This document shows, in pieces, positions 33,063 to 43,529 of a stretch of 43,529 bases of DNA (its first letter is position 1; each line of letters begins with the position of its first letter). The DNA comes from Deltaproteobacteria bacterium (lineage in GTDB: Bacteria > Bdellovibrionota > Bdellovibrionia > Bdellovibrionales > JAMPXM01). Under the pieces are notes generated by a model. It was not told the DNA's origin. It did no database searches and worked only from the letters and a program-made list of their open reading frames with translations. The translations under genes and the position numbers were made by a program. The stretch covers positions 1-43,529 of the forward strand of contig JAFLCB010000018.1 of NCBI GenBank assembly GCA_017302795.1, read 5' to 3'.

Positions 33063-35465
33063 TTAACTCGACCAGAAATCTGCAACGTCTTTTAGAATCT
33101 GAGTTGAGACCAGTTCACGTGGACTTTCGTCAAACCAGTCTTGTGGCATCGATTTGGCGTAGCTGGATTGGGTAAAGCGATCATCAATTAAAACAATAAG
33201 ACCACGATCGGTCTCGCTGCGAATCACTCGGCCCGCCGCCTGTACGGCTTTTGCCATTGCAGGATAGGTGTAAGTATAATCAAAACCTGCTTTATAACTC
33301 TTCTCGTAATACTCACGTTTCTTTTCCCGCTCGAGATCAAAGTTCGGAAGTGGAGGTCCAACGATAAACGCTCCGATTGCCATTTCGCCCGGATAATCGA
33401 CGCCTTCCGAGAACACTCCACCTTGAACCGCAAACACGAGGTGGTCGCAATTTTTTTCGCGAAGGAGATTTAAGACGTCATCGACGGCATCTGTACGCAT
33501 CGACCGCTCTTGCCGGATGACACTGAAGCCATCAGACGCTTCAAATTCCCTTTTGTATTCCATTAAAACACGCTCCAAAAAATCAAAACTCGGAAAAAAT
33601 ACAAAGTAGTTTCCCTTTTTTATTCTGGTGATTTTCGAAATAGTTTCCGCGATCCGCGGATAACTTCGCTCCCGCTCTGAATACTTCGAAGAGATTTGCG
33701 GTATGATCAGAAGCTTCCGGTTAGATTTTGCAAACGGCGACGCAAACTCGGCTTTGATGAGAGAATCACGCTTTAGCCCCATAAGCTGGCTATAATATTC
33801 AAAAGGTTTCAGTGTCGCCGAAAACGCGACCGTATTTTGATATTCATCGTAACTCGACTTCAACATTTCTGAAGCGTCACAGCACGTGATTTTCACCGTG
33901 GCGGGGTTCGGGCTGAATGTCGTAAAGAACTCTTCCCGATCGCTGTTAACAAACTCAAGCGCAGCCGCAAACTCGGACCAATAAAAGGAAAGCCTCATCA
34001 GCACATCTCGAGGTTGAATGTCCACGTCGGAAGCAAGATAGGCCGAAAGGAGGCCTCGGAGCTCTTCATCCTGCGCGTGAAAAGCCCGAACCGGAGGTTT
34101 AATTTTTTCGGCTGCAGTCTGATCTTTTCGTCCGCAAGACTTCACAACTTGAATACAAGCACTCAGCTGCTTTTGCGCTTCGGAACGAAACTTTTTTGGC
34201 AGCTTTTCGATTTCCTCACGCATGTTTTCAAGAACCAATACCGACAAAGTCGGAGAAAAATAATCCATGGCTCTCGCCGGTAAATTGTGAGCCTCATCTA
34301 TTACCAAGTTGGGCTTTCCATCCTGATCAAGACCACTTCGCGCCAATCGACCAAATGCAGACCGCGGGGCAAAAACATAGTTGTAATCACAAATGACTGT
34401 TTCAACATCGAGCGCGGCATCGAGTTGCAATTCGAAGGGGCATACTTCGAATTCACTTCCCATTTTTTTGAATGTTCGCGCCGTGAGCTTCTTTTTTTTC
34501 GCAAGTTTATCAAGAAGCATGTTCGCCGCGAGTTTCGTGTAGTGATCCTTCGCGTACTCACAGTATTCAGGGTTACAAAGCGGTTCGTTCTTAAAGCAAA
34601 GCTTGCTTTTGGCAGTGATCGAAAGAGACTTTAGCTTTGCTCCAGCTTCCTGAAGTCGTTCGATGGCATCTTCTGCCACCGAGTGCTGGCTATTTTTAGG
34701 AGTGACGTAAACTACTCGCTGCCCACGCGCCAGTGCTTCTTTGAGACTTGGATAAAGAACTCCGACTGTTTTTCCTAAACCAGTCGGGGCTTGAATCAAC
34801 ATGGGAGACGAAGTTCCCATACCATTTTTGATCGTTTCAATGAGTTCAATCTGGCCTGAACGCGGCTTTGAAAAAGGAAATGGTAAGCTTGAAGAAATCT
34901 CGCGCCTCCGTTTAGCCCGTTTTTCAGCTTGCTTCGCTAATTCAACGAGCTCAAGTAGTCGACGAGCTAACCAACTTTCATAAGATGCAACATCAAGCCT
35001 CACCGAAAGATCGATCGCTTCTCGGTTTCTTGTCGAGACAAGATGGAAACCGAGTTCCGGCAGTTTCGAATTTTGGAGCCAGTAAAAATATCCGTAGGTT
35101 AACAATTGAAGTTCGTAGGGATGTGCAAGCGCCGATTCGCGAAGGCGCTTTTGCATTTCGTAAACATTAAAAGCGGATTTTATTTCTTCTATACGAGGGC
35201 CGGATTCCGCGACGGATTCTAAGGTCTCGAATAGTCCGTCAACTCGACCGCCAACTTCAAATGAAAAGCCGCCGGCTTCAAACGTGTGAGTTAGCTGCAC
35301 TTCTGGTCGATAGTTCGCGTGCGACCGAGCGCGCGCTGCTTGAACTTCTTGATGGATCTCTAGGCCCAACTCAGACGCCCGGCCAAAACCAGATAGAACG
35401 TCAATACTTCCTTTCAGCGGCGACGGCATAGCAAATTCAGTCACAGCCAGGCGAACGGTCTTCAT
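33063..35465 (-). CDS. RecB-type nuclease fused to XPD/DinG-family Fe-S helicase
   Basis: Encodes 800 aa. The N-terminal about 185 residues carry all PD-(D/E)XK RecB/Cas4-family landmarks: His39 (LGLEIHQEV), Asp76 (GGRVDGLF), Glu94-x-Lys96 (RIEEIKSAF) and Gln120-xxx-Tyr124 (ELQLLTYGYF). The rest is a superfamily-2 XPD-like helicase with Walker A QAPTGLGKT (225-233) and four Fe-S cysteines (Cys290, 297, 302 and 342). It also has DEAH (390-393) and the C-terminal motifs QGGVFSEGVDYPGE and AAGRVIRSETDRG. It should load on single-stranded DNA, unwind it 5'-3' and possibly cut it. The stop-start overlap with the exonuclease gene upstream (35462-35465) implies a joint repair role. Confidence 0.9.
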   Translation of the reverse strand: MKTVRLAVTEFAMPSPLKGSIDVLSGFGRASELGLEIHQEVQAARARSHANYRPEVQLTHTFEAGGFSFEVGGRVDGLFETLESVAESGPRIEEIKSAFNVYEMQKRLRESALAHPYELQLLTYGYFYWLQNSKLPELGFHLVSTRNREAIDLSVRLDVASYESWLARRLLELVELAKQAEKRAKRRREISSSLPFPFSKPRSGQIELIETIKNGMGTSSPMLIQAPTGLGKTVGVLYPSLKEALARGQRVVYVTPKNSQHSVAEDAIERLQEAGAKLKSLSITAKSKLCFKNEPLCNPEYCEYAKDHYTKLAANMLLDKLAKKKKLTARTFKKMGSEFEVCPFELQLDAALDVETVICDYNYVFAPRSAFGRLARSGLDQDGKPNLVIDEAHNLPARAMDYFSPTLSVLVLENMREEIEKLPKKFRSEAQKQLSACIQVVKSCGRKDQTAAEKIKPPVRAFHAQDEELRGLLSAYLASDVDIQPRDVLMRLSFYWSEFAAALEFVNSDREEFFTTFSPNPATVKITCCDASEMLKSSYDEYQNTVAFSATLKPFEYYSQLMGLKRDSLIKAEFASPFAKSNRKLLIIPQISSKYSERERSYPRIAETISKITRIKKGNYFVFFPSFDFLERVLMEYKREFEASDGFSVIRQERSMRTDAVDDVLNLLREKNCDHLVFAVQGGVFSEGVDYPGEMAIGAFIVGPPLPNFDLEREKKREYYEKSYKAGFDYTYTYPAMAKAVQAAGRVIRSETDRGLIVLIDDRFTQSSYAKSMPQDWFDESPRELVSTQILKDVADFWSS

Positions 35466-36490
35466 AAAAAAGACATCTGTTCTACGGACTTTGTTTCAAG
35501 AGCAGTATCTGGAAAAGCTTGAATTCCTAAATTTCGCAAATGGCGAACAAGAGCACCGTTCCCCCGGTGTTGAACATAGACACGCTTGGCGCCTGTCGCT
35601 AATACGGTGGCGACCAAATCGTTCCAGTCGGCGTGATCCGACATGACAAAGCCAGTGTCGCAACCGCCATATGTTCTTCGACTAGCACTTGCCATCCAAC
35701 CTGACGCAAAGGCAGTCTCGAATTTCTCACCTAGCAGCTTAGATTGACTCGACTTCAAGAATGACTGGGGTACAAGAAAAAGTTCGCCGCTCAACTCCGA
35801 GGTGTCAGCGATCCGACTTAAACAGATCGTTGGAGCTAAAGATATCCCGCGGGCTCGGTAGCAATCAGTCAGCGCCGTTGCGGCGGGATGACAATAGACA
35901 GGCCTCTTCATGTACGGCTGAAGAACGCCTAGGACCCGCTGAGCTTTCCCTAGTGAATAAGCGAAAAGAACACTACTGACGCCGTTTACCCGATTTTCTT
36001 CAGACCATTCCGAAATTTGCCGGCCAAGGTCAATTCCTTTAGGCCACTGGTAGGCCGGCGTACCAAAAGTGGCTTCCGTGATAAAGACGTCACATTTCAC
36101 TTCTTGAAATGGTTCGCAGGTTGGATCTGGATCACGCTTGTAATCACCGGAAACAAGCCAAACTTCACCAAAGGGTTTACGGGTTCCTGGGTTCAGTTTC
36201 TGCATGCGAACTTGGGCCGAACCAAGAATGTGCCCTGCCGGATGAAACGAAAGTTCGACGTTCCGTAGGACAAACTTTTCACCAAAATCAAAGCCATGAA
36301 CTTTCGCAGTTTTCCCAATTCGAACTTTGAGAAGATCAACACCCGAATGCGGTGTATAATAGTTTAGGCTTCCGCGCCGAGCATGGTCAGCGTGGGCGTG
36401 CGTGATCACAGCGTGTTCAACCGACACCATCGGATCGATGCTGAATCCACCTGTGACATTGGTGAGCGTCTTACGAACAAGATTCAGCAT
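35462..36490 (-). CDS. Ligase-associated DNA exonuclease (metallo-beta-lactamase/beta-CASP fold)
   Basis: Encodes 342 aa. It has FSIDPMVSVEHAVITHAHAD with the metal motif HAHADH (His31, His33, Asp35, His36). It also has FHPAGHILGSAQV, WLVSGDYKRDPDPTCEPF, ITEATFGTPAYQWP, FAYSLGKAQRVLG, SGWMASASRRTYGGCDTGFV and MSDHADWNDLV. This order is the hallmark of the ligase-associated DNA exonuclease family, related to SNM1/Artemis nucleases, which usually sits with an ATP-dependent DNA ligase and an Lhr-type helicase. Here no ligase is seen in the window and the partner is an XPD-type helicase-nuclease read from an overlapping start. It probably trims DNA ends in repair. It is cytoplasmic and is the first gene of a two-gene operon. 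Confidence 0.92.
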   Translation of the reverse strand: MLNLVRKTLTNVTGGFSIDPMVSVEHAVITHAHADHARRGSLNYYTPHSGVDLLKVRIGKTAKVHGFDFGEKFVLRNVELSFHPAGHILGSAQVRMQKLNPGTRKPFGEVWLVSGDYKRDPDPTCEPFQEVKCDVFITEATFGTPAYQWPKGIDLGRQISEWSEENRVNGVSSVLFAYSLGKAQRVLGVLQPYMKRPVYCHPAATALTDCYRARGISLAPTICLSRIADTSELSGELFLVPQSFLKSSQSKLLGEKFETAFASGWMASASRRTYGGCDTGFVMSDHADWNDLVATVLATGAKRVYVQHRGNGALVRHLRNLGIQAFPDTALETKSVEQMSFL

Positions 36491-36623
36491 AGGTTATCGA
36501 AACTATTCGAACTTGCGTGGAAAATCCAGACTGATAATGGTGAAAAGTCACTAGACGAACTCAAGAACTAAGGCTACGTGAAGCTGTACTAGGTTCACTG
36601 CTCGCTCGATGACTAAAATTCTC

Positions 36624-36637
36624 GGAGGTTTTTTTTG
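36624..36637 (+). promoter_or_regulatory. Strong ribosome-binding site and TTG start of the electron-transfer operon
   Basis: GGAGG (36624-36628) is followed by a run of eight T (36629-36636), the last two being part of the TTG start codon (36635-36637). The spacing of six bases is ideal and no ATG fits the signal peptide that follows, so TTG is very likely the start. Slippage in the T8 run would change both the spacing and the start context. Confidence 0.75.
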
Positions 36638-37720
36638 AAATATTTCGGCTTGGTCGCGGCCTTTTTGTTTTTTGCTTCAGCTTCGAACTCGCAAGCAACC
36701 GAAGAAACCGTAGATCTCGAGAAGGAAAACGCGCCCGCCTCGACGACTGCTCACCCTAACGGCGGCAGACAAGGCAGCGGAGGCCTATCCATTATGGGAC
36801 GGGTCGACCTGACGAGCGACTATGGGGCTGGCAACCCGGTCGGCACGACGAATGGTGACTCGACGAAGTACGAGAAACTCACGAATAATCACTTCTTCTT
36901 GTTTTTGAAAGCTAAGCCCTCCGAACGAGTCAGCTTCATGGGCGAATTTGTTGGTCAAAACTTCTTCACAGTTGATTTTGAAGCGACAAAATCGCTGTCC
37001 ATATCCTTCGGTAAGATTTTAATCCCATTTGGCGACACGCGATATTTTCATCACTTTTACGGTGGCATCGCCGGCTATGGAGCTACATCCGGGATCATGC
37101 TGCCAAACATTTGGTCAGCTCCTGGATTTAGCTTGGGATGGAAGTGGTCTAACATGAAGTTCGACACCTATGTCGTCCAGACGCTTGGGCAGGACGCGGG
37201 AGCAACAGATCCCGTTTCAATCAACTCTTCTTCTGCGACCTCCAATCGGCGGCAAGCGGCGGGTCTTCGATCGTCTTTTTCTCCGCTAGACCGAGTAGGA
37301 ATTATTCTGTCTGCTTATCATGGCGACTATACACCCAGCGTCCCGCTCACCATTGGCGGCTTCGACATTAACGCAGAATATGGTGCCATTCCTTGGGGCG
37401 TACTAAAGCACCTTCGTTTTTCCTACGGCGTTGCAAATGCGTGGCTAAAGACGGTCGTTCAAGGAATCGACTATGAAAAACGGGGGGATTATGCCGTTAT
37501 TGGGACAAACTACCTCAATCCCGTTGAAATTCGAGTAAGGTATGGAACTTACCTTAACGATACCCGCGCCAAATCGCAGTTTGACGTCCACAATTTTAAT
37601 CTTGGTGTCAATTTTCCAGTGGATGTGCTACGGGTTCTGCTCGAATACCAACTGAATTACGAGGCAGCGAACGAAGTCGAAAACGACGTCGCCCGAGTAA
37701 TGGTAAGTCTCGACTTCTAG
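36635..37720 (+). CDS. Porin-like outer-membrane beta-barrel protein
   Basis: Encodes 361 aa from a TTG start with signal peptide (MKYFGLVAAFLFFASASNSQA-TE). After a short acidic and Ser/Gly-rich linker, alternating strands run to the end: LSIMGRVDLTSDYGAG, HFFLFLKAKPSERVSFMGEF, FSLGWKWSNMKFDTYVVQTL, VEIRVRYGTYL and LRVLLEYQLNYEA. The last residue is Phe (VMVSLDF), the usual outer-membrane assembly signal. It is probably a 16-strand-like porin letting a small substrate or ion through. It heads an operon with a four-helix membrane protein, an FMN-binding protein, cytochrome c and ApbE, so its cargo may be the electron donor or acceptor of that chain (inference). Confidence 0.8.
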   Translation: MKYFGLVAAFLFFASASNSQATEETVDLEKENAPASTTAHPNGGRQGSGGLSIMGRVDLTSDYGAGNPVGTTNGDSTKYEKLTNNHFFLFLKAKPSERVSFMGEFVGQNFFTVDFEATKSLSISFGKILIPFGDTRYFHHFYGGIAGYGATSGIMLPNIWSAPGFSLGWKWSNMKFDTYVVQTLGQDAGATDPVSINSSSATSNRRQAAGLRSSFSPLDRVGIILSAYHGDYTPSVPLTIGGFDINAEYGAIPWGVLKHLRFSYGVANAWLKTVVQGIDYEKRGDYAVIGTNYLNPVEIRVRYGTYLNDTRAKSQFDVHNFNLGVNFPVDVLRVLLEYQLNYEAANEVENDVARVMVSLDF

Positions 37721-37735
37721 CCAGGATCTATTTGA

Positions 37736-38335
37736 ATGCCGAATGCGCTCACTTTTGAAAATGTACTTCAGCTGCGATTACGTAACGCTCCTACGCCTTT
37801 GAAGTCTCTCGCACTCGGGTTCGTTTTTGCGCTTTCCATGGCTTATGTCTATGCCATGGGCAACATCGTCCTTGTCGTCGGACTAACTCCGGATGCAATT
37901 GCAACCCATTACTATGGTGCTGCGGCGACAGTCGAAGAGTCGGTAGCAAAGCCAGCTCAGGAAGAAGAGGTCAATCTCGATGAAATCGACGCAGCCGCGA
38001 AACCAGCAATTGGCCCACGACCGAGCTTCAAAAACCTAGTTGCCGAAGGGCACTTTCATCTCTTTGGGATGACGAGTTTCTTTTTCGGAATGACACTTCT
38101 TGGTCTTTTCACCTCAGTGCCTGATCGCTACAAGGCTATTTTACTCGGACTACCCTACCTATCGATCGTCGCGGACAACCTAAGCTTCATGGCGACCCGT
38201 TTCCTAGGTCCGCGTTTTGCTTACCTGACAGCTGTGTCGGGCACCTTCATGGTGATTTGCTTCTCGCTCCTTTGGATCGCTATTGTTTTTGAGATTTTTA
38301 GCAAACCTCATTCTACCAAGCAGGTGTCAGCGTGA
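37736..38335 (+). CDS. Four-helix inner-membrane protein of the electron-transfer operon
   Basis: Encodes 199 aa. Hydrophobic segments lie at about 23-49, 107-125, 133-150 and 162-187, with an acidic periplasmic-looking insertion of about 50 residues between the first two (EEVNLDEIDAAAK). The second helix starts with AEGHFHLFGMTSFFFG, whose two His could hold a haem or metal. I do not recognise the family. It begins 15 bases after the porin-like gene and overlaps the FMN-binding gene by four bases, so it is probably the membrane link of the chain, feeding electrons from quinol or the cytoplasm (inference). Confidence 0.75.
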   Translation: MPNALTFENVLQLRLRNAPTPLKSLALGFVFALSMAYVYAMGNIVLVVGLTPDAIATHYYGAAATVEESVAKPAQEEEVNLDEIDAAAKPAIGPRPSFKNLVAEGHFHLFGMTSFFFGMTLLGLFTSVPDRYKAILLGLPYLSIVADNLSFMATRFLGPRFAYLTAVSGTFMVICFSLLWIAIVFEIFSKPHSTKQVSA

Positions 38336-38892
38336 TTCGAACTTTAGGTCTCGTTTTCGTAATTTGGATTATCCTGATGGCTTTGACCTTTGGCGACCAA
38401 CAAGTGTTTGCGAAGGAATTAATGACCACAAAAGATTTTTTAAAAAAAGAACTCTCGAGCTCCGCGAAAATGACGAAAGAAACCTTCCCGCTTGCCGCGG
38501 CCGAACTGAACTCATTGAAATCCATCGCGCCTGACTCGGATGATCAGTCGATTACCTTCTACTACGGCAAACAAGCGGACGGGAAACTCGACAAGGCCTG
38601 CACAATTCTTCCCCAGAAGGGTAAAGAGGGGCCGATTATCGCAGGTGTTTGTTTTTCTCCAAGTGGACTTATCGCGAGTGTGACGATCTTGCAGCACCAA
38701 GAAGAGCGCGGAATGGGCATCGAGGAGCAAAGTTTTCTAAAGCAATTCAACGGGAAAAAAGTCAGCGATGGATTTGTTTTAGGCCAGGACGTTAACGGGA
38801 TCAGCGGCGCAACATGGTCTTCGAAGGCGATGGCCGAAGTAACTAGAAAAGCAAGTTTTGCATTTAAAACCTTTGTCGGAGAAAAAAAATGA
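38332..38892 (+). CDS. Membrane-tethered FMN-binding domain protein
   Basis: Encodes 186 aa. An N-terminal hydrophobic segment (about 3-20) acts as signal or anchor. The C-terminal domain (about 75-182) is an FMN_bind domain like those of RnfG and NqrC: IIAGVCFSPSGLIASVTILQ, then QHQEERGMGIEEQSFLKQF, then DVNGISGATWSSKAM. SGAT ends in Thr161, the residue to which ApbE joins FMN by a phosphodiester bond. ApbE is encoded two genes downstream in the same overlapping operon. The protein would carry one or two electrons in the periplasm between the membrane protein and the cytochrome encoded next. Confidence 0.9.
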   Translation: MIRTLGLVFVIWIILMALTFGDQQVFAKELMTTKDFLKKELSSSAKMTKETFPLAAAELNSLKSIAPDSDDQSITFYYGKQADGKLDKACTILPQKGKEGPIIAGVCFSPSGLIASVTILQHQEERGMGIEEQSFLKQFNGKKVSDGFVLGQDVNGISGATWSSKAMAEVTRKASFAFKTFVGEKK

Positions 38893-39281
38893 ATCACACG
38901 CATACTTTTTCAAACGTTTCAAAAATAGTTTCTGCGATCGTGCTTTTGCTGTTTGCCACCGCATGTGGAGCCGCTAACCCGTTCGAGCGCGGCGAATCGC
39001 TCGAGAGTGGTGAAAGCGAAATTGCAGAGAGCGCCGCGCCCGGCACGCTTCCATCTTTGAATGAAGCTTCCTTCGACGCGAATGTAAAACCACTTTTCGC
39101 AACTTCGTGCGATCGATGCCACTCGGCTCCAACCTATGCCGAATCAGTAACACTCTCGGTCTTAGGTGATCCCGCGAATAGCCCACTTTACCAAAAAGCT
39201 GTCGGCATGGGTCATCGCACGATTTTCAAAGACACATCAGCAGAAGCAAAGATTTTAGCTGATTGGATTATGGGTAAGTGA
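38889..39281 (+). CDS. Lipid-anchored small cytochrome c
   Basis: Encodes 130 aa. A lipoprotein signal peptide ends in LLFATAC (lipid site Cys26). A Ser/Glu-rich linker of about 30 residues leads to a haem-c site, ATSCDRCHSAPTYAE (Cys74, Cys77, His78). A later Met in KAVGMGHRT (Met107) is the best candidate for the sixth iron ligand. The domain is short (about 70 residues), like the mini-cytochromes of the planctomycete type or the P-loop of SoxX-type proteins. It overlaps the genes on both sides by four bases. It likely takes electrons from the FMN-binding protein and passes them to a soluble or outer-membrane partner. Confidence 0.88.
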   Translation: MNHTHTFSNVSKIVSAIVLLLFATACGAANPFERGESLESGESEIAESAAPGTLPSLNEASFDANVKPLFATSCDRCHSAPTYAESVTLSVLGDPANSPLYQKAVGMGHRTIFKDTSAEAKILADWIMGK

Positions 39282-40171
39282 TTTTCTGGTTTGGTTTTTT
39301 GCTTGCGGGGCTGGTCGGTTGTTCGACCGCCCCTGTTTTTTGCGAGTCGCAACAGTCTTTTTTAAGCATGGGCTCGGTTTTCGAACTTCAATTGAAAAGC
39401 ACACGCGAAAATCAATGCAATCAAGATCAGAACGAGACTCTGTATCTCTGGATACAAGACACCCTCACACGGCTAGACCAAGAGTTGAGTTTGTATCAAC
39501 CGCAAAGTGCCCTCTCGAGGCTCAACAAGCACGGCAAGGTCGAGGCGGTCAGTGATGATTTTCTAAAAGTGTTAAACCTCTCGATCGATAGCCAGCGCAA
39601 AACTCATGGCGTGTTCGACGTCACTTTGCTCTCCGCAATCAACTCTATGAAAAACGGCCGTCTCCCTTCGCGCAAGCTCGTTGGTCCTGGATTGGTGAAG
39701 ATCTCTGACCGCAGTATTTCCTTTAAGCAGAAGGGAGTCGAAATCACATTTGACGGAATCGCAAAAGGCTATGCCGTAGATAAGGTTTCCGAGCACCTAG
39801 AAGCCCTCGGTTACCGCAACTACCTGGTGAATTTTTCCGGAAACATGCGGTGGCGTGGACGCCGGGCCGACAATGGATTTTGGGCTATCTCGATGTGGAA
39901 TCCGGTAACCAAAAATACGATACCACTTGAGGGTACCGAAAGCGGCGCGATCGCGACCTCTGGTCCTGAACATCGTGGAAAACATATCATGGATCCGCGA
40001 GATTTCAGCTTCCCCGAGCTCTATTCTTCGGTCTCCGCCATCGGTCCATCGGCTGCGATCTGCGACGTACTTTCGACCACGCTATATGCCCTCGATGAAA
40101 AAACGGCCGACACGATGCTCAAAATTGAGTATTCCGATTACAAAGTATGGCGAGTCTTAAACAAAAACTGA
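39278..40171 (+). CDS. apbE: FAD:protein FMN transferase (ApbE), lipoprotein form
   Basis: Encodes 297 aa. ApbE splits FAD and joins FMN to Thr of FMN_bind proteins. The signal peptide ends in LLAGLVGC (lipid site Cys15). The landmarks are MGSVFEL at the start of the domain, LDQELSLYQPQSALSRLN, FDGIAKGYAVD (158-168), VNFSGNMRWRG, GAIATSG, HIMDPR (236-241) and GPSAAICDVLSTTLYAL (256-272), with Asp263 and Thr267 as the usual metal ligands. The length is normal for the family. It is the last gene of the operon and almost certainly modifies the FMN-binding protein encoded by the third gene. An AT-rich stretch follows before the convergent regulator gene. Confidence 0.95.
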   Translation: MIFWFGFLLAGLVGCSTAPVFCESQQSFLSMGSVFELQLKSTRENQCNQDQNETLYLWIQDTLTRLDQELSLYQPQSALSRLNKHGKVEAVSDDFLKVLNLSIDSQRKTHGVFDVTLLSAINSMKNGRLPSRKLVGPGLVKISDRSISFKQKGVEITFDGIAKGYAVDKVSEHLEALGYRNYLVNFSGNMRWRGRRADNGFWAISMWNPVTKNTIPLEGTESGAIATSGPEHRGKHIMDPRDFSFPELYSSVSAIGPSAAICDVLSTTLYALDEKTADTMLKIEYSDYKVWRVLNKN

Positions 40172-40239
40172 AGAACCCAGCAATAAAACAAACTTAATTG
40201 ATAATTTGGAAAATTTAATTTCAATTTATTCGTGATATC

Positions 40240-41040
40240 CTATTGCTCCAGGCGATACCAATCCAGACAGAAAACCACCAGTGTTTCACTTGGTGATTCA
40301 TTAATCTTTTGCCGAGTTTTCAAGATGCAATCCGTAAGCGTCTCTTGAATCTTGTCGACGTCGGACTTGGAAAGACAGTGAATCGCGGAGTAATGAAGTC
40401 CATCGTCGTGACTCTCTTGTAAAAACTGGTTCGTGCGATTGCGCCAAAGAGTATGTGTGAGTCGAGCAATCGGATGAGTTGCTGGAAGGTGAACATTTTT
40501 TGAATTCGCACTCCAAGTATCGCCACTAGCTGTCAAAAGGCCCAATTGGCCAAGCTCACGCAATGTCTTTGTAATCTGTTTGACCGGCAAATTTAATATC
40601 TCAGAAAGGTCCTTCGGTGACTGAGCTTTGATCATGCAGGCCACATGAACCGCAGCATTGACCCAGCTGGAGTAGTACTTTATCGCGCCCTCTTCGCTTA
40701 CTTTTGAATCCACCTTAACAGAAGGGGCGAGCTTTTTTCCATCACGTCGCAATCTATCAATTCGCACCTGAAGTCTTTTTTTCATGGCGGGAGTTGCTGC
40801 GCGCTCTTGATCGACCAACAATAAAAAATAGTCGGTTTCGGCTTCAGACAAGTGTAAGTGGACAGCAATTCCCAACGCCTGATCCGGGGTCAGGTGAACA
40901 GTACCGGCTAGGACCCGCGTTAGCCAGGAAGGACTGCATGCGGCGGCCCTCGCGAGCCTGGTGCGGGTGCCGCGATCACCCTGGCCCTTGGCACAGGTCT
41001 CCACGAGGGATCTGTAGTCGACAATCGAAAATAGATTCAT
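40240..41040 (-). CDS. TIGR02147/DUF4423-family regulator-like protein
   Basis: Encodes 266 aa and is cytoplasmic. The N-terminal part reads as a helix-turn-helix (TRLARAAACSPSWLTRVLAG, then TPDQALGIAVHLHLSEAETD YFL). The second half shows the features of this family: IKYYSSWVNAAVHVACMIKA, then a winged-helix-like LSEILNLPVKQITKTLRELG, LGLLTASGDTWSAN, and a C-terminal HYSAIHCLSKSDVDKIQETL. Paralogues are numerous in Fibrobacter and Bdellovibrio genomes and are thought to be transcription regulators. It is convergent with the electron-transfer operon and divergent from the DUF333 gene, whose promoter region (41041-41180) it may share and control. Confidence 0.82.
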   Translation of the reverse strand: MNLFSIVDYRSLVETCAKGQGDRGTRTRLARAAACSPSWLTRVLAGTVHLTPDQALGIAVHLHLSEAETDYFLLLVDQERAATPAMKKRLQVRIDRLRRDGKKLAPSVKVDSKVSEEGAIKYYSSWVNAAVHVACMIKAQSPKDLSEILNLPVKQITKTLRELGQLGLLTASGDTWSANSKNVHLPATHPIARLTHTLWRNRTNQFLQESHDDGLHYSAIHCLSKSDVDKIQETLTDCILKTRQKINESPSETLVVFCLDWYRLEQ

Positions 41041-41180
41041 AACTACTCACCTTAATAAAATAGCAAAAAAAGTGTGTAGCTTTTGATAAAACTATCCTAG
41101 CACTCAGTCAAGAACAGGGACATAAAGAGTTCAACGGCAGCAATGCCGATGAACAAACTTAAATGGAAGTGGAAAAATAA

Positions 41181-41591
41181 ATGAGATTCAAAATCGGTTT
41201 TCTAAGTGTTTTGGCACTTAGCGCTCTTACTAGTATTTCTACCCCAGTCTTCGCCCGCGGCGGTGGCTCTAGCGTGGGTCCCGCAAACCCTGCTGCGATG
41301 AACTGTCTCGTTCTTGGCGGCGAGCTTGAGAACTACACGACTGAAGCCGGAGAAAATGCAAACTGCGTGATTGAAGAATGGACCTTGTTCAAAGAAATGA
41401 ATGACCGGGGACTCGTCAAACCACATCAATATGGACCAGGAGTCGGTATGCCGAATCCGGCAGCCGTGAATTGCATCGACATAGGGGGCGACCTTCGAGC
41501 GGAGGCGATGCCGACTGGCGAAACCAGCACTTTCTGTGTCGTCGAACAATGGACACTGTTCAATACGATAGATGCTGTGACAGGTCGTTAA
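41181..41591 (+). CDS. Exported protein with two tandem DUF333-like repeats
   Basis: Encodes 136 aa with signal peptide (about 1-25, TSISTPVFARGG). Two repeats of about 40-45 residues follow: ANPAAMNCLVLGGELEN...NANCVIEEWTLFKEM and PNPAAVNCIDIGGDLRA...TFCVVEQWTLFNTI. Each has the NPAA..C...GG......C...EW pattern of DUF333 (PF03891), a small disulfide-bonded domain of secreted proteins of unknown role. Single-domain proteins are usual; the tandem arrangement looks like an internal duplication. An inverted repeat (CGGCA...TGCCG, 41134-41147) lies in the leader. It is divergent from the TIGR02147-type gene. Confidence 0.8.
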   Translation: MRFKIGFLSVLALSALTSISTPVFARGGGSSVGPANPAAMNCLVLGGELENYTTEAGENANCVIEEWTLFKEMNDRGLVKPHQYGPGVGMPNPAAVNCIDIGGDLRAEAMPTGETSTFCVVEQWTLFNTIDAVTGR

Positions 41592-41632
41592 TCCATACGT
41601 CGAATCAAGACGAATTGGACTGAGATGAACCA

Positions 41633-41654
41633 GAAGCCCGCCGTCGCGGGCTTC
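41633..41654. other. Hairpin between convergent genes
   Basis: A 9-bp perfect stem (GAAGCCCGC at 41633-41641, GCGGGCTTC at 41646-41654, four-base loop) lies between the DUF333 gene and the convergent small-protein gene. It is followed on the plus strand by AAAAAA rather than T, so it is not a classical intrinsic terminator on either strand, although its position fits a bidirectional transcript end. Confidence 0.55.
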
Positions 41655-41667
41655 AAAAAATCTAGAT

Positions 41668-41949
41668 CTAGAGCTCGCGGCAAGTCTTTAGGTCAGCAAG
41701 TCCACCTGGAGTAACAACGAGAAGCGATTTGCCGCCTATTTTGACAACGTAGGCTCTTGCAGATCGACTAGCGAGAGTTGCTTCGCAGTCTGAGTTCTGT
41801 TCGACCAGCTTTTCAAGAACCGTGTATTTGCTGATTTCGATCACCTTTTCTGCTCCTAAAGTATTTTGCACATCTTCTTCCGTAATGAATGTAAGTGCGG
41901 ATGCACTTGAAGCTATCAATGTCGAAGCAATCATCGTAATAATTTTCAT
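41668..41949 (-). CDS. Small exported protein (93 aa)
   Basis: The start is taken at the ATG at 41949, which follows GGAGAG and opens a signal peptide (MKIITMIASTLIASSASA-LT); the longer frame to 42033 adds an unlikely leader. The mature part is about 74 aa with two cysteines (NSDCEATL, KTCREL) that could pair, and a central KIGGKSLLVVTPGGLADLK. No family is recognised. It is transcribed alone. Confidence 0.7.
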   Translation of the reverse strand: MKIITMIASTLIASSASALTFITEEDVQNTLGAEKVIEISKYTVLEKLVEQNSDCEATLASRSARAYVVKIGGKSLLVVTPGGLADLKTCREL

Positions 41950-42085
41950 AGACTCTCCATGTAAACTTGGGTTGATTGGTTGATTTATCAAACTACGCTT
42001 TAGGTTAACTTGTGCGTCCAAGTAAACTGGCAAAAACGAAAATCGACTATAATCAATGTTCGCCGAAAATTTTTCGCCTCAAGAT

Positions 42086-42115
42086 GTACTGTTTAGTACT
42101 GTTTAGTACTGTTTA
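42086..42115. repeat. Decamer tandem repeat (GTACTGTTTA)3
   Basis: Three perfect contiguous copies of a 10-base unit, followed by a degraded partial fourth (GTTCTGTT), lie upstream of the small exported-protein gene and downstream of the diguanylate cyclase gene. The spacing of about one helix turn would place repeated sites on one DNA face. Confidence 0.9.
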
Positions 42116-42284
42116 GTTCTGTTCCCCACTTCCCTTTTACAACTTGAGAAGTCTTCAGCGCCGACTAACGGGCGACGGCGGAGTACTCGTGATGACTCAC
42201 TTGGGGCTGATGATTGTTACACTTGTTTCGCGAGATTGGCTTGATAAGTAGAGAGAAATATTTTTGCGGTGCGGGCTTTGTACC

Positions 42285-43376
42285 TTAAGCCGCGCTGGCT
42301 GACGGCAAAAAATGGTCGATAATAGTGAAACGACCTCGACCGGATTTTTTGGATAGGTACATGCATTCGTCGGCCTGTCGTATGACTGCGTCTTCTGTCG
42401 CATTCGTATCTAAAGTTTCAGGGGTTACAATTACGCAGCCAACGCTGACCGACACCGACACCGGGTGTCCCAGAATCGAATTAATGTTTTCAACAGCTTC
42501 AATCACGCGACGGCAAATTACCTCGGCATCAGCTTTGGACTGAACCGAATCTAGTACGATCGTGAACTCATCGCCCCCCAATCGAGCGAGCAGGTCAGAA
42601 TCGCGTAATAGTATTTTGGTCCGTCGCCCGACTTCTTTTAATAGAAAATCGCCAGCACCGTGACCAAGTGTATCGTTGACTTGCTTGAAACCGTCGAGAT
42701 CAAAATACACACAGGCGACCGAGTGGCGGTTTTTTCTGCTGATTTCAAGCGAATGTTTCAGGTGATCCAATGCCAGGCTGCGATTCGGAAGCCCGGTGAG
42801 CGAGTCGTGCGTCGCAATCAGTTCAAGTTTCTCCGAAGCCGATCGCAGAGCCCGAAGTAGAAACATCGTGTAGATTGAGACCATCAGATAGTTCGCCATA
42901 AGTCCGAAAGACACAAAAGGAAGATTTCGCCAATACGGGACCGCGAGAAAAATAAACGATAAACCCAATGTACTAAAAATAATAGAGTTGATCAGCGCAC
43001 GCTCACCAAAACGAAACCCATTGCCAATCGTGATAAACGGGTAGATGAAAAGAAAAAGCGCAGCTTTTTCGTGGCCGAAATAAAGATAGACCGTGCACAC
43101 GCCAACATCATGAATAACTCCCAAAAGGCGACGGGTCTTGTTAATCTCAGGCCTAGCGTAAATGTGGAGTAAAATTGAGCTACTGGCAAATACTGAGAAT
43201 ATAGTGAGAAGCTGGCAGACGAGACTGTCGAAATCGAGCCCCTGCATTGAGAATCGATTGTGGTAGGTGATGTAAGTAACGGCGACAGAAAGAATCGCAA
43301 GTCGCAACAGAGCTTGTCGGTGTTCAGAATCTTTCCGTTTGCTAAAACGAGCCCGCATATCTTGAATTAAGCTCAT
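42285..43376 (-). CDS. Membrane-bound diguanylate cyclase (GGDEF)
   Basis: Encodes 363 aa. It makes cyclic di-GMP from two GTP. Residues about 20-175 hold five to six hydrophobic helices (RLAILSVAVTYITYH, LVCQLLTIFSVFASSSILL, AALFLFIYPFITIG, FSTLGLSFIFLAVPYW, ANYLMVSIYTMFLL), a membrane sensor of unknown signal. The GGDEF domain starts at THDSLTGLPNR (189-199). It contains YFDLDGFKQVNDTLGHGAGD, the active site RLGGDEF (GGDEF 267-271) and, five residues before it, RDSD (258-261), the product-inhibition I-site, so an active, feedback-controlled enzyme is likely. Start at 43376. It seems to be transcribed alone. Confidence 0.95.
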   Translation of the reverse strand: MSLIQDMRARFSKRKDSEHRQALLRLAILSVAVTYITYHNRFSMQGLDFDSLVCQLLTIFSVFASSSILLHIYARPEINKTRRLLGVIHDVGVCTVYLYFGHEKAALFLFIYPFITIGNGFRFGERALINSIIFSTLGLSFIFLAVPYWRNLPFVSFGLMANYLMVSIYTMFLLRALRSASEKLELIATHDSLTGLPNRSLALDHLKHSLEISRKNRHSVACVYFDLDGFKQVNDTLGHGAGDFLLKEVGRRTKILLRDSDLLARLGGDEFTIVLDSVQSKADAEVICRRVIEAVENINSILGHPVSVSVSVGCVIVTPETLDTNATEDAVIRQADECMYLSKKSGRGRFTIIDHFLPSASAA

Positions 43377-43458
43377 AGCTATTCTTGTCGGAGGCGAAGT
43401 TAGCTGCGGTAGTTGAGAATTGCGTTTACAACGCGCCCTCGTTCGAGAGGTTTTCGAC

Positions 43459-43529
43459 TTAGATCATTTCTAGTTCTGCCGTCACCTCCGTTTTTTCGAT
43501 CACGTATTTTTTGTAGAGTTCGTACCCAT
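43459..43529 (-). CDS. C-terminal end of a gene cut by the right edge
   Basis: On the minus strand, the frame entering from the right edge reads GYELYKKYVIEKTEVTAELE and then MI and TAA (43459-43461). The composition looks like real coding sequence, and its end lies 82 bases before the diguanylate cyclase start on the same strand. Too little is present to name the product. Confidence 0.45.
   Translation of the reverse strand, partial: GYELYKKYVIEKTEVTAELEMI

Follow-up and report, generated by a model that had tools for sequence, protein, structure and literature searches.

The closest described relatives of the gene set considered here belong to systems in which an inner-membrane protein is linked to flavinylation. 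Five such membrane classes (NapH-, MsrQ-, PepSY-, DsbD- and NQR/RNF-like) were distinguished by Meheust 2021 (PMC8238504), and between them they cover 3635 of the 6230 flavinylation genomes without a characterised system, leaving some 2600 over. Several of the membrane classes associated with flavinylation, in that survey and in the description of DUF4405/FezC (PMC11334425), show links to iron in the form of VIT1, Fur and P19; FeoB is not mentioned in the former (PMC8238504). Neither of these two flavinylation surveys, nor a review of ApbE (PMC12052999), names a porin partner or a membrane class like the one described below, and keyword searches of the literature, with subscription journals and supplementary tables outside their scope, returned no other description. 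The window analysed here, the whole of a contig (C18) of 43,529 nucleotides from a 4.23 Mb Bdellovibrionota assembly, holds a genuine and conserved variant of flavinylation-based envelope electron transfer that appears to be undescribed. Five adjacent genes probably form an envelope module that passes electrons from the inner membrane to covalent FMN, on to haem c and thence to the outer membrane. Gene identities, conservation, motifs and genome associations are the observations beneath this reading, from which we infer the membrane protein's cofactor, the direction of the electrons, the location and the acceptor.

A preliminary description of this DNA had proposed a set for flavin/haem electron transfer outside the cytoplasm, comprising an enzyme of its own to attach the flavin, a barrel and a membrane partner that it did not recognise, and the present analysis supports that proposal while refining it on the barrel, the branches of the family and iron. 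All five open reading frames are present on the forward strand with spacings, from porin to ApbE, of +15, -4, -4 and -4, the 4-base overlaps said to join the last four genes being exact. They encode an outer-membrane porin-like barrel of 361 residues (36635..37720; TTG start after GGAGG, signal peptide, C-terminal Phe), a 199-residue membrane protein without a named family, assigned four transmembrane helices by its model and charge topology (37736..38335; hereafter the 4TM protein), an exported FMN_bind protein of 186 residues (38332..38892), a single-haem cytochrome c lipoprotein of 130 residues (38889..39281) and a lipoprotein ApbE, or FAD:protein FMN transferase, of 297 residues (39278..40171). 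Because the gene set is conserved across phyla, the cluster is not a chance assembly. Scans of the sequence for promoters and terminators gave signals no better than shuffles, and Rfam gave no match.

The FMN_bind protein matches PF04205 at 38 bits against a cut-off of 22 and carries, as first reported, an SGAT flavinylation motif (38803..38814) whose acceptor, Thr161, is shared by 37 of 39 aligned relatives, while ApbE scores 145 bits against PF02424, above the curated cut-off, with its motifs invariant. An FMN_bind domain bearing [S/T]GA[S/T] and an ApbE gene occur in the same genome, the combination by which ApbE-dependent flavinylated systems are recognised, and FMN is probably attached to the predicted acceptor Thr161 by the ApbE of the cluster. 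Only one FMN_bind domain was found in each of four cluster-bearing genomes, that of the window included; therefore no RnfG/NqrC-type carrier was found there, and the flavoprotein would serve this system alone in those genomes. The claim that the set is unlike Rnf or Nqr also stands, with NCBIfam scores for the window FMN_bind protein of 37.5 bits for rnfG (cut-off 102) and 13.2 for nqrC (cut-off 144), and no Rnf/Nqr companion subunit among all open reading frames from 34000 to 43529. Outside the clusters, a second ApbE gene of the window genome (L070 5497-11999, G000:C2) and the only ApbE gene of another (L071 346-6201, G029:C8) have no FMN_bind gene nearby, and both adjoin small CXXCH lipoproteins and a long Tat-like protein; a cluster-bearing Bdellovibrionota genome (L068 3730-5994, G186:C319) holds a second FMN_bind-ApbE pair with a DUF6662 protein before it.

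The cytochrome has the two features claimed for it, a lipobox (Cys26, CGAANPFERG) and one CXXCH haem site, CDRCH (39108..39122), and matches no family over cut-off. In 13 of 13 relatives a distal His (His109 in the window) is kept and there is no conserved Met, which suggests a low-potential bis-His haem, and the window genome encodes a cytochrome c assembly protein (PF01578). The segment after the lipid-bearing Cys (38964-38993), ending P-[FL]-x-R-G, is likewise found in 13 of 13 relatives, which is more than a mere linker needs.

Gene order is conserved in relatives both within Bdellovibrionota and beyond the phylum, a point on which the preliminary description had hung. Among 241 genomes sampled from the phylum the 4TM protein occurs in five; four of these (the window, L006, L007 and L009) share the complete five-gene order. 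The fifth (L008) keeps the first four genes; its cytochrome has two CXXCH sites, and an ApbE lies outside the cluster, at another place in the genome. Four other members of the window's genus are without the 4TM protein. A single-protein search of genome contigs gave no match; a profile search then found relatives outside the phylum in two Rhodothermales/Rhodothermia MAGs and one Eisenbacteria MAG, and an order-wide search of 114 Rhodothermales genomes gave nine strong and seven weak matches. Viral contigs yielded no match, and plasmids no distant 4TM relative. Thus other Bdellovibrionota, Rhodothermales and Eisenbacteria also show the order barrel-4TM-FMN_bind-cytochrome c-ApbE, and the set spans at least three phyla.

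Tracing the seven weak matches led to a second branch with a distant form of the 4TM protein, in which the order is barrel-FMN_bind-4TM, often followed by ApbE, with no cytochrome. A 4TM profile that includes this form finds matches in 40 of 395 sampled Bacteroidota genomes, and a tally of Pfam families among 91 second-branch neighbours showed no recurrent partner except EamA, rhodanese and SufE, which are borne by synteny. In a tree of 52 4TM proteins, a fully supported split sets the window's branch (branch A) apart from the rest, and within it the Bdellovibrionota proteins, five in number, make up a single supported group. Each of the 13 branch-A loci of sufficient length has the cytochrome gene, which was found in no second-branch locus, and since this presence and absence matches the split, gene content and 4TM phylogeny agree. 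The window set is one branch of a larger family, the other branch of which is without the cytochrome.

The barrel has no Pfam match in its window copy. Its model has 16 strands at a pLDDT of only 58, matches general porins by Foldseek (E 2.7e-7) and aligns with general porins, OprO/OprP and DcaP included, at a VIA Z of ~16 over ~250 residues; the porin-like barrel of the preliminary description is, on this model, an ordinary 16-strand porin fold. Porins 27-38% identical to it occupy the same place in seven other loci, the barrels of L123 and L125 exceed the cut-off of Porin_O_P (PF07396), and a profile of branch-A porins weakly matches several second-branch barrels. A flavinylated barrel of the DUF3570 kind was considered and rejected, the GAT of the window porin not being conserved.

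Iron genes recur beside the second branch. FeoB directly adjoins the cluster at L125 (with FeoA, and in the window's own gene order), L145, L146 and L147 (with FeoA), four cases against ~0.08 expected in 56 loci, an expectation that is a rough count from one or two FeoB genes among 3500, with L145 and L146 possibly not independent. Furthermore, Fur lies two genes from the L106 barrel and a ferritin adjoins L133, and the second branch is best read as a periplasmic ferric reductase. The L145 and L146 genomes each have two strong FeoB matches, one separate and one of ~635 residues adjoining the flavin cluster. An iron-specific solute-binding protein beside L108, L112 and L120 was not upheld, the scores pointing to no iron family. 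No FeoB lies beside the cluster in the window or among the other cytochrome-branch loci, and two cytochrome-branch genomes (G057 and G241) have no strong FeoB_N match, the scores there being no better than other GTPases reach; this branch may therefore serve something other than iron uptake. The window genome has its FeoB elsewhere (C9:136849).

The neighbours of the window's branch in Rhodothermales point rather to outer-membrane or extracellular acceptors. At five of the nine strong matches an octahaem lipoprotein adjoins the cluster (the one scanned has MtrC/MtrF-like domains), at three others (L055, L059 and L060) the protein between porin and 4TM protein is EB_dh (ethylbenzene dehydrogenase-like), an assignment tested at one of these loci, and the contig of the ninth is too short to show neighbours. 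The EB_dh haem protein at these three loci and the octahaem cytochrome elsewhere are both redox proteins and would represent a possible exchange of terminal modules. Adjoining a second-branch cluster, at L143 (2-4765), are a 19-CXXCH cytochrome, a 4-CXXCH cytochrome and a ferredoxin-type flavoprotein oxidoreductase. The module might then feed a terminal reductase at the outer surface or outer membrane, with minerals, humics or soluble compounds as acceptors, in a respiratory or extracellular role and not in iron assimilation. We regard this as a serious though somewhat doubtful alternative, favoured by the octahaem lipoproteins, by the 19-CXXCH cytochrome near the L143 cluster and by the cytochrome branch's want of a FeoB link; however, the window genome has no MtrC-like match (PF22113), the Bdellovibrionota clusters hold cytochromes of one or two haems only, and the window barrel, a 16-strand porin in its model, would not be wide enough to hold an MtrB-type haem wire.

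How electrons would enter the module depends on the 4TM protein. Its model (pLDDT 72) bears out the four-helix protein with an HxH pair that had been described, with transmembrane helices at residues 20-48, 98-123, 130-157 and 159-188 and the pair, H106-F-H108 (38051..38059), near the periplasmic end of helix 2. Of 41 aligned relatives, 39 have both histidines and the other two are fragmentary or atypical sequences; HxH is the most conserved feature of the family, in which G61, F116, P140 and R155 are also near-invariant. The distribution of charges places both termini inside, and the long acidic loop and HxH outside, so that charges and model together support the periplasmic side for the histidines. 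We infer a cofactor, probably haem b, at HxH; H58, which would be the obvious second haem ligand, is not conserved (it is Lys in L014), and haem b would therefore have to be bound by the two HxH residues together, in a dimer or with some other ligand. A single site on the periplasmic side suggests quinol at that face as the source of electrons, and not NADH across the whole membrane, topology being what points to oxidation of quinol by this protein.

The partner that the preliminary description could not recognise belongs to no described complex found in Pfam, NCBIfam, the PDB or the three publications cited above. In neither branch does the 4TM protein match a Pfam or NCBIfam model over cut-off, and a PDB sequence search gave no relative. 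The Pfams of the NapH-, MsrQ-, PepSY-, DsbD-, NQR/RNF-like and DUF4405 proteins gave no match to the five Bdellovibrionota proteins at E<=1, nor did the same membrane-class Pfams to second-branch proteins at E<=0.5 or 0.05. A fold search with the model returned helix bundles only, none significant, and no haem protein or solved membrane cytochrome, an absent match that excludes nothing. DUF4199 was rejected as the family, one member of five having matched, below cut-off. At L125 (5007-6000) two tandem 4TM genes adjoin FeoAB, and the second is marginally like the YaaH acetate-transporter family.

Alternatively, the 4TM protein may be an anchor, a transporter of metal or haem, or a factor that helps to assemble the flavoprotein or the cytochrome, with HxH binding a metal such as Cu, Zn or Fe. 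That there are only two invariant His residues, that no haem-protein fold was matched, that downstream of the Rhodothermus-type version there is a PCu(A)C copper chaperone and that the second L125 copy has a marginal YaaH likeness all lend this something, but we think it rather unlikely, given that in second-branch clusters this is the only inner-membrane protein able to link the FMN carrier to a source of electrons, and that it is kept in every second-branch locus examined, though these loci were found through it. Inward flow, in which the set would oxidise an extracytoplasmic donor and pass electrons to the quinone pool, is improbable: sequence fixes no direction, but covalent FMN and bis-His haem are usually of low potential, which favours the reduction of acceptors, and the link with FeoB requires Fe(II) to be produced on the periplasmic side.

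Two proteins of the window's branch carry a common acidic and hydrophobic motif of the pattern E-E-phi-x-phi-D-D-phi (for example EEFSFDDLD). In the window it appears as ETVDLEKEN, a weak copy placed by eye, at porin residues 24-32, directly behind the signal peptide (36704..36730), and as EEVNLDEID at residues 77-85 of the 4TM periplasmic loop (37964..37990). Read by eye, it lies on the mature porin N-terminus and on the periplasmic loop in all 14 branch-A loci with both genes, and it is essentially absent from the remaining cluster proteins and from the second branch. When porin N-termini were scored, against their own shuffles, with a matrix made from the 4TM loops of other genomes only, 11 of 14 beat the shuffles at p<0.1, eight of them at ~0.01 or below; the window porin stands at p 0.12, and in the window, L007 and L009 the best site of the matrix differs from that chosen by eye. 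Two hydrophobic residues match between porin and 4TM motif in 8 of 14 genomes, above permutation (p ~1e-4), for a motif found by eye post hoc, in loci that share ancestry and with the porin copies placed by hand for this test. The motif on both proteins suggests a common docking partner.

The preferred reading, an envelope module running from inner to outer membrane, can accordingly be sketched as follows, each step being a proposal. The lipoprotein ApbE would flavinylate the periplasmic FMN_bind protein at Thr161; the 4TM protein would be the inner-membrane entry, most likely passing electrons from quinol to a cofactor, probably haem b, at the periplasmic HxH and from there to FMN; and the FMN protein would reduce the cytochrome c lipoprotein, with its low-potential bis-His haem, which probably has its anchor in the outer membrane close to the porin. 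The porin itself may let in the terminal acceptor, for which a ferric chelate is the most plausible candidate, or hold the lipoproteins, and with a motif common to porin and 4TM loop a single soluble carrier could dock at either membrane. A bolder version would make the 4TM HxH proteins a new class of membrane donors of electrons to flavinylated proteins, with the soluble carrier of branch A docking at the same motif on both membranes and no multihaem wire; it is offered as a speculation that we think rather unlikely. The duplicated docking motif is a simple and testable idea of how electrons might cross the envelope without multihaem wires; the FeoB-linked operons are a testable case for periplasmic ferric reduction feeding Feo in Gram-negative bacteria; and the 4TM class, found in roughly one in ten of the Bacteroidota genomes sampled, may fill part of the gap of ~2600 genomes (PMC8238504).

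Set beside known systems, the cluster shares parts with each. RNF and NQR have, in RnfG and NqrC, an FMN_bind protein with a covalent-FMN motif and an ApbE; here, in contrast, the rnfG score is below cut-off, the cluster holds no other Rnf/Nqr subunit and the genome no second FMN_bind protein. Mtr/Pcc porin-cytochrome conduits likewise combine a barrel with a c-type cytochrome, and the Rhodothermales relatives add an MtrC/MtrF-like octahaem lipoprotein, but where those conduits have a barrel of at least 20 strands and multihaem cytochromes, the window has 16 strands (in a low-confidence model) and one CXXCH. The Porin_O_P family (PF07396), OprO/OprP and DcaP share the barrel fold, whereas the window barrel has no Pfam match and bears an extra N-terminal acidic motif. 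The Meheust classes (PMC8238504) and DUF4405/FezC (PMC11334425) also have an inner-membrane protein encoded beside FMN_bind and ApbE; unlike these, the 4TM protein lies outside their Pfams, has four helices and one HxH, and is paired with an outer-membrane porin.
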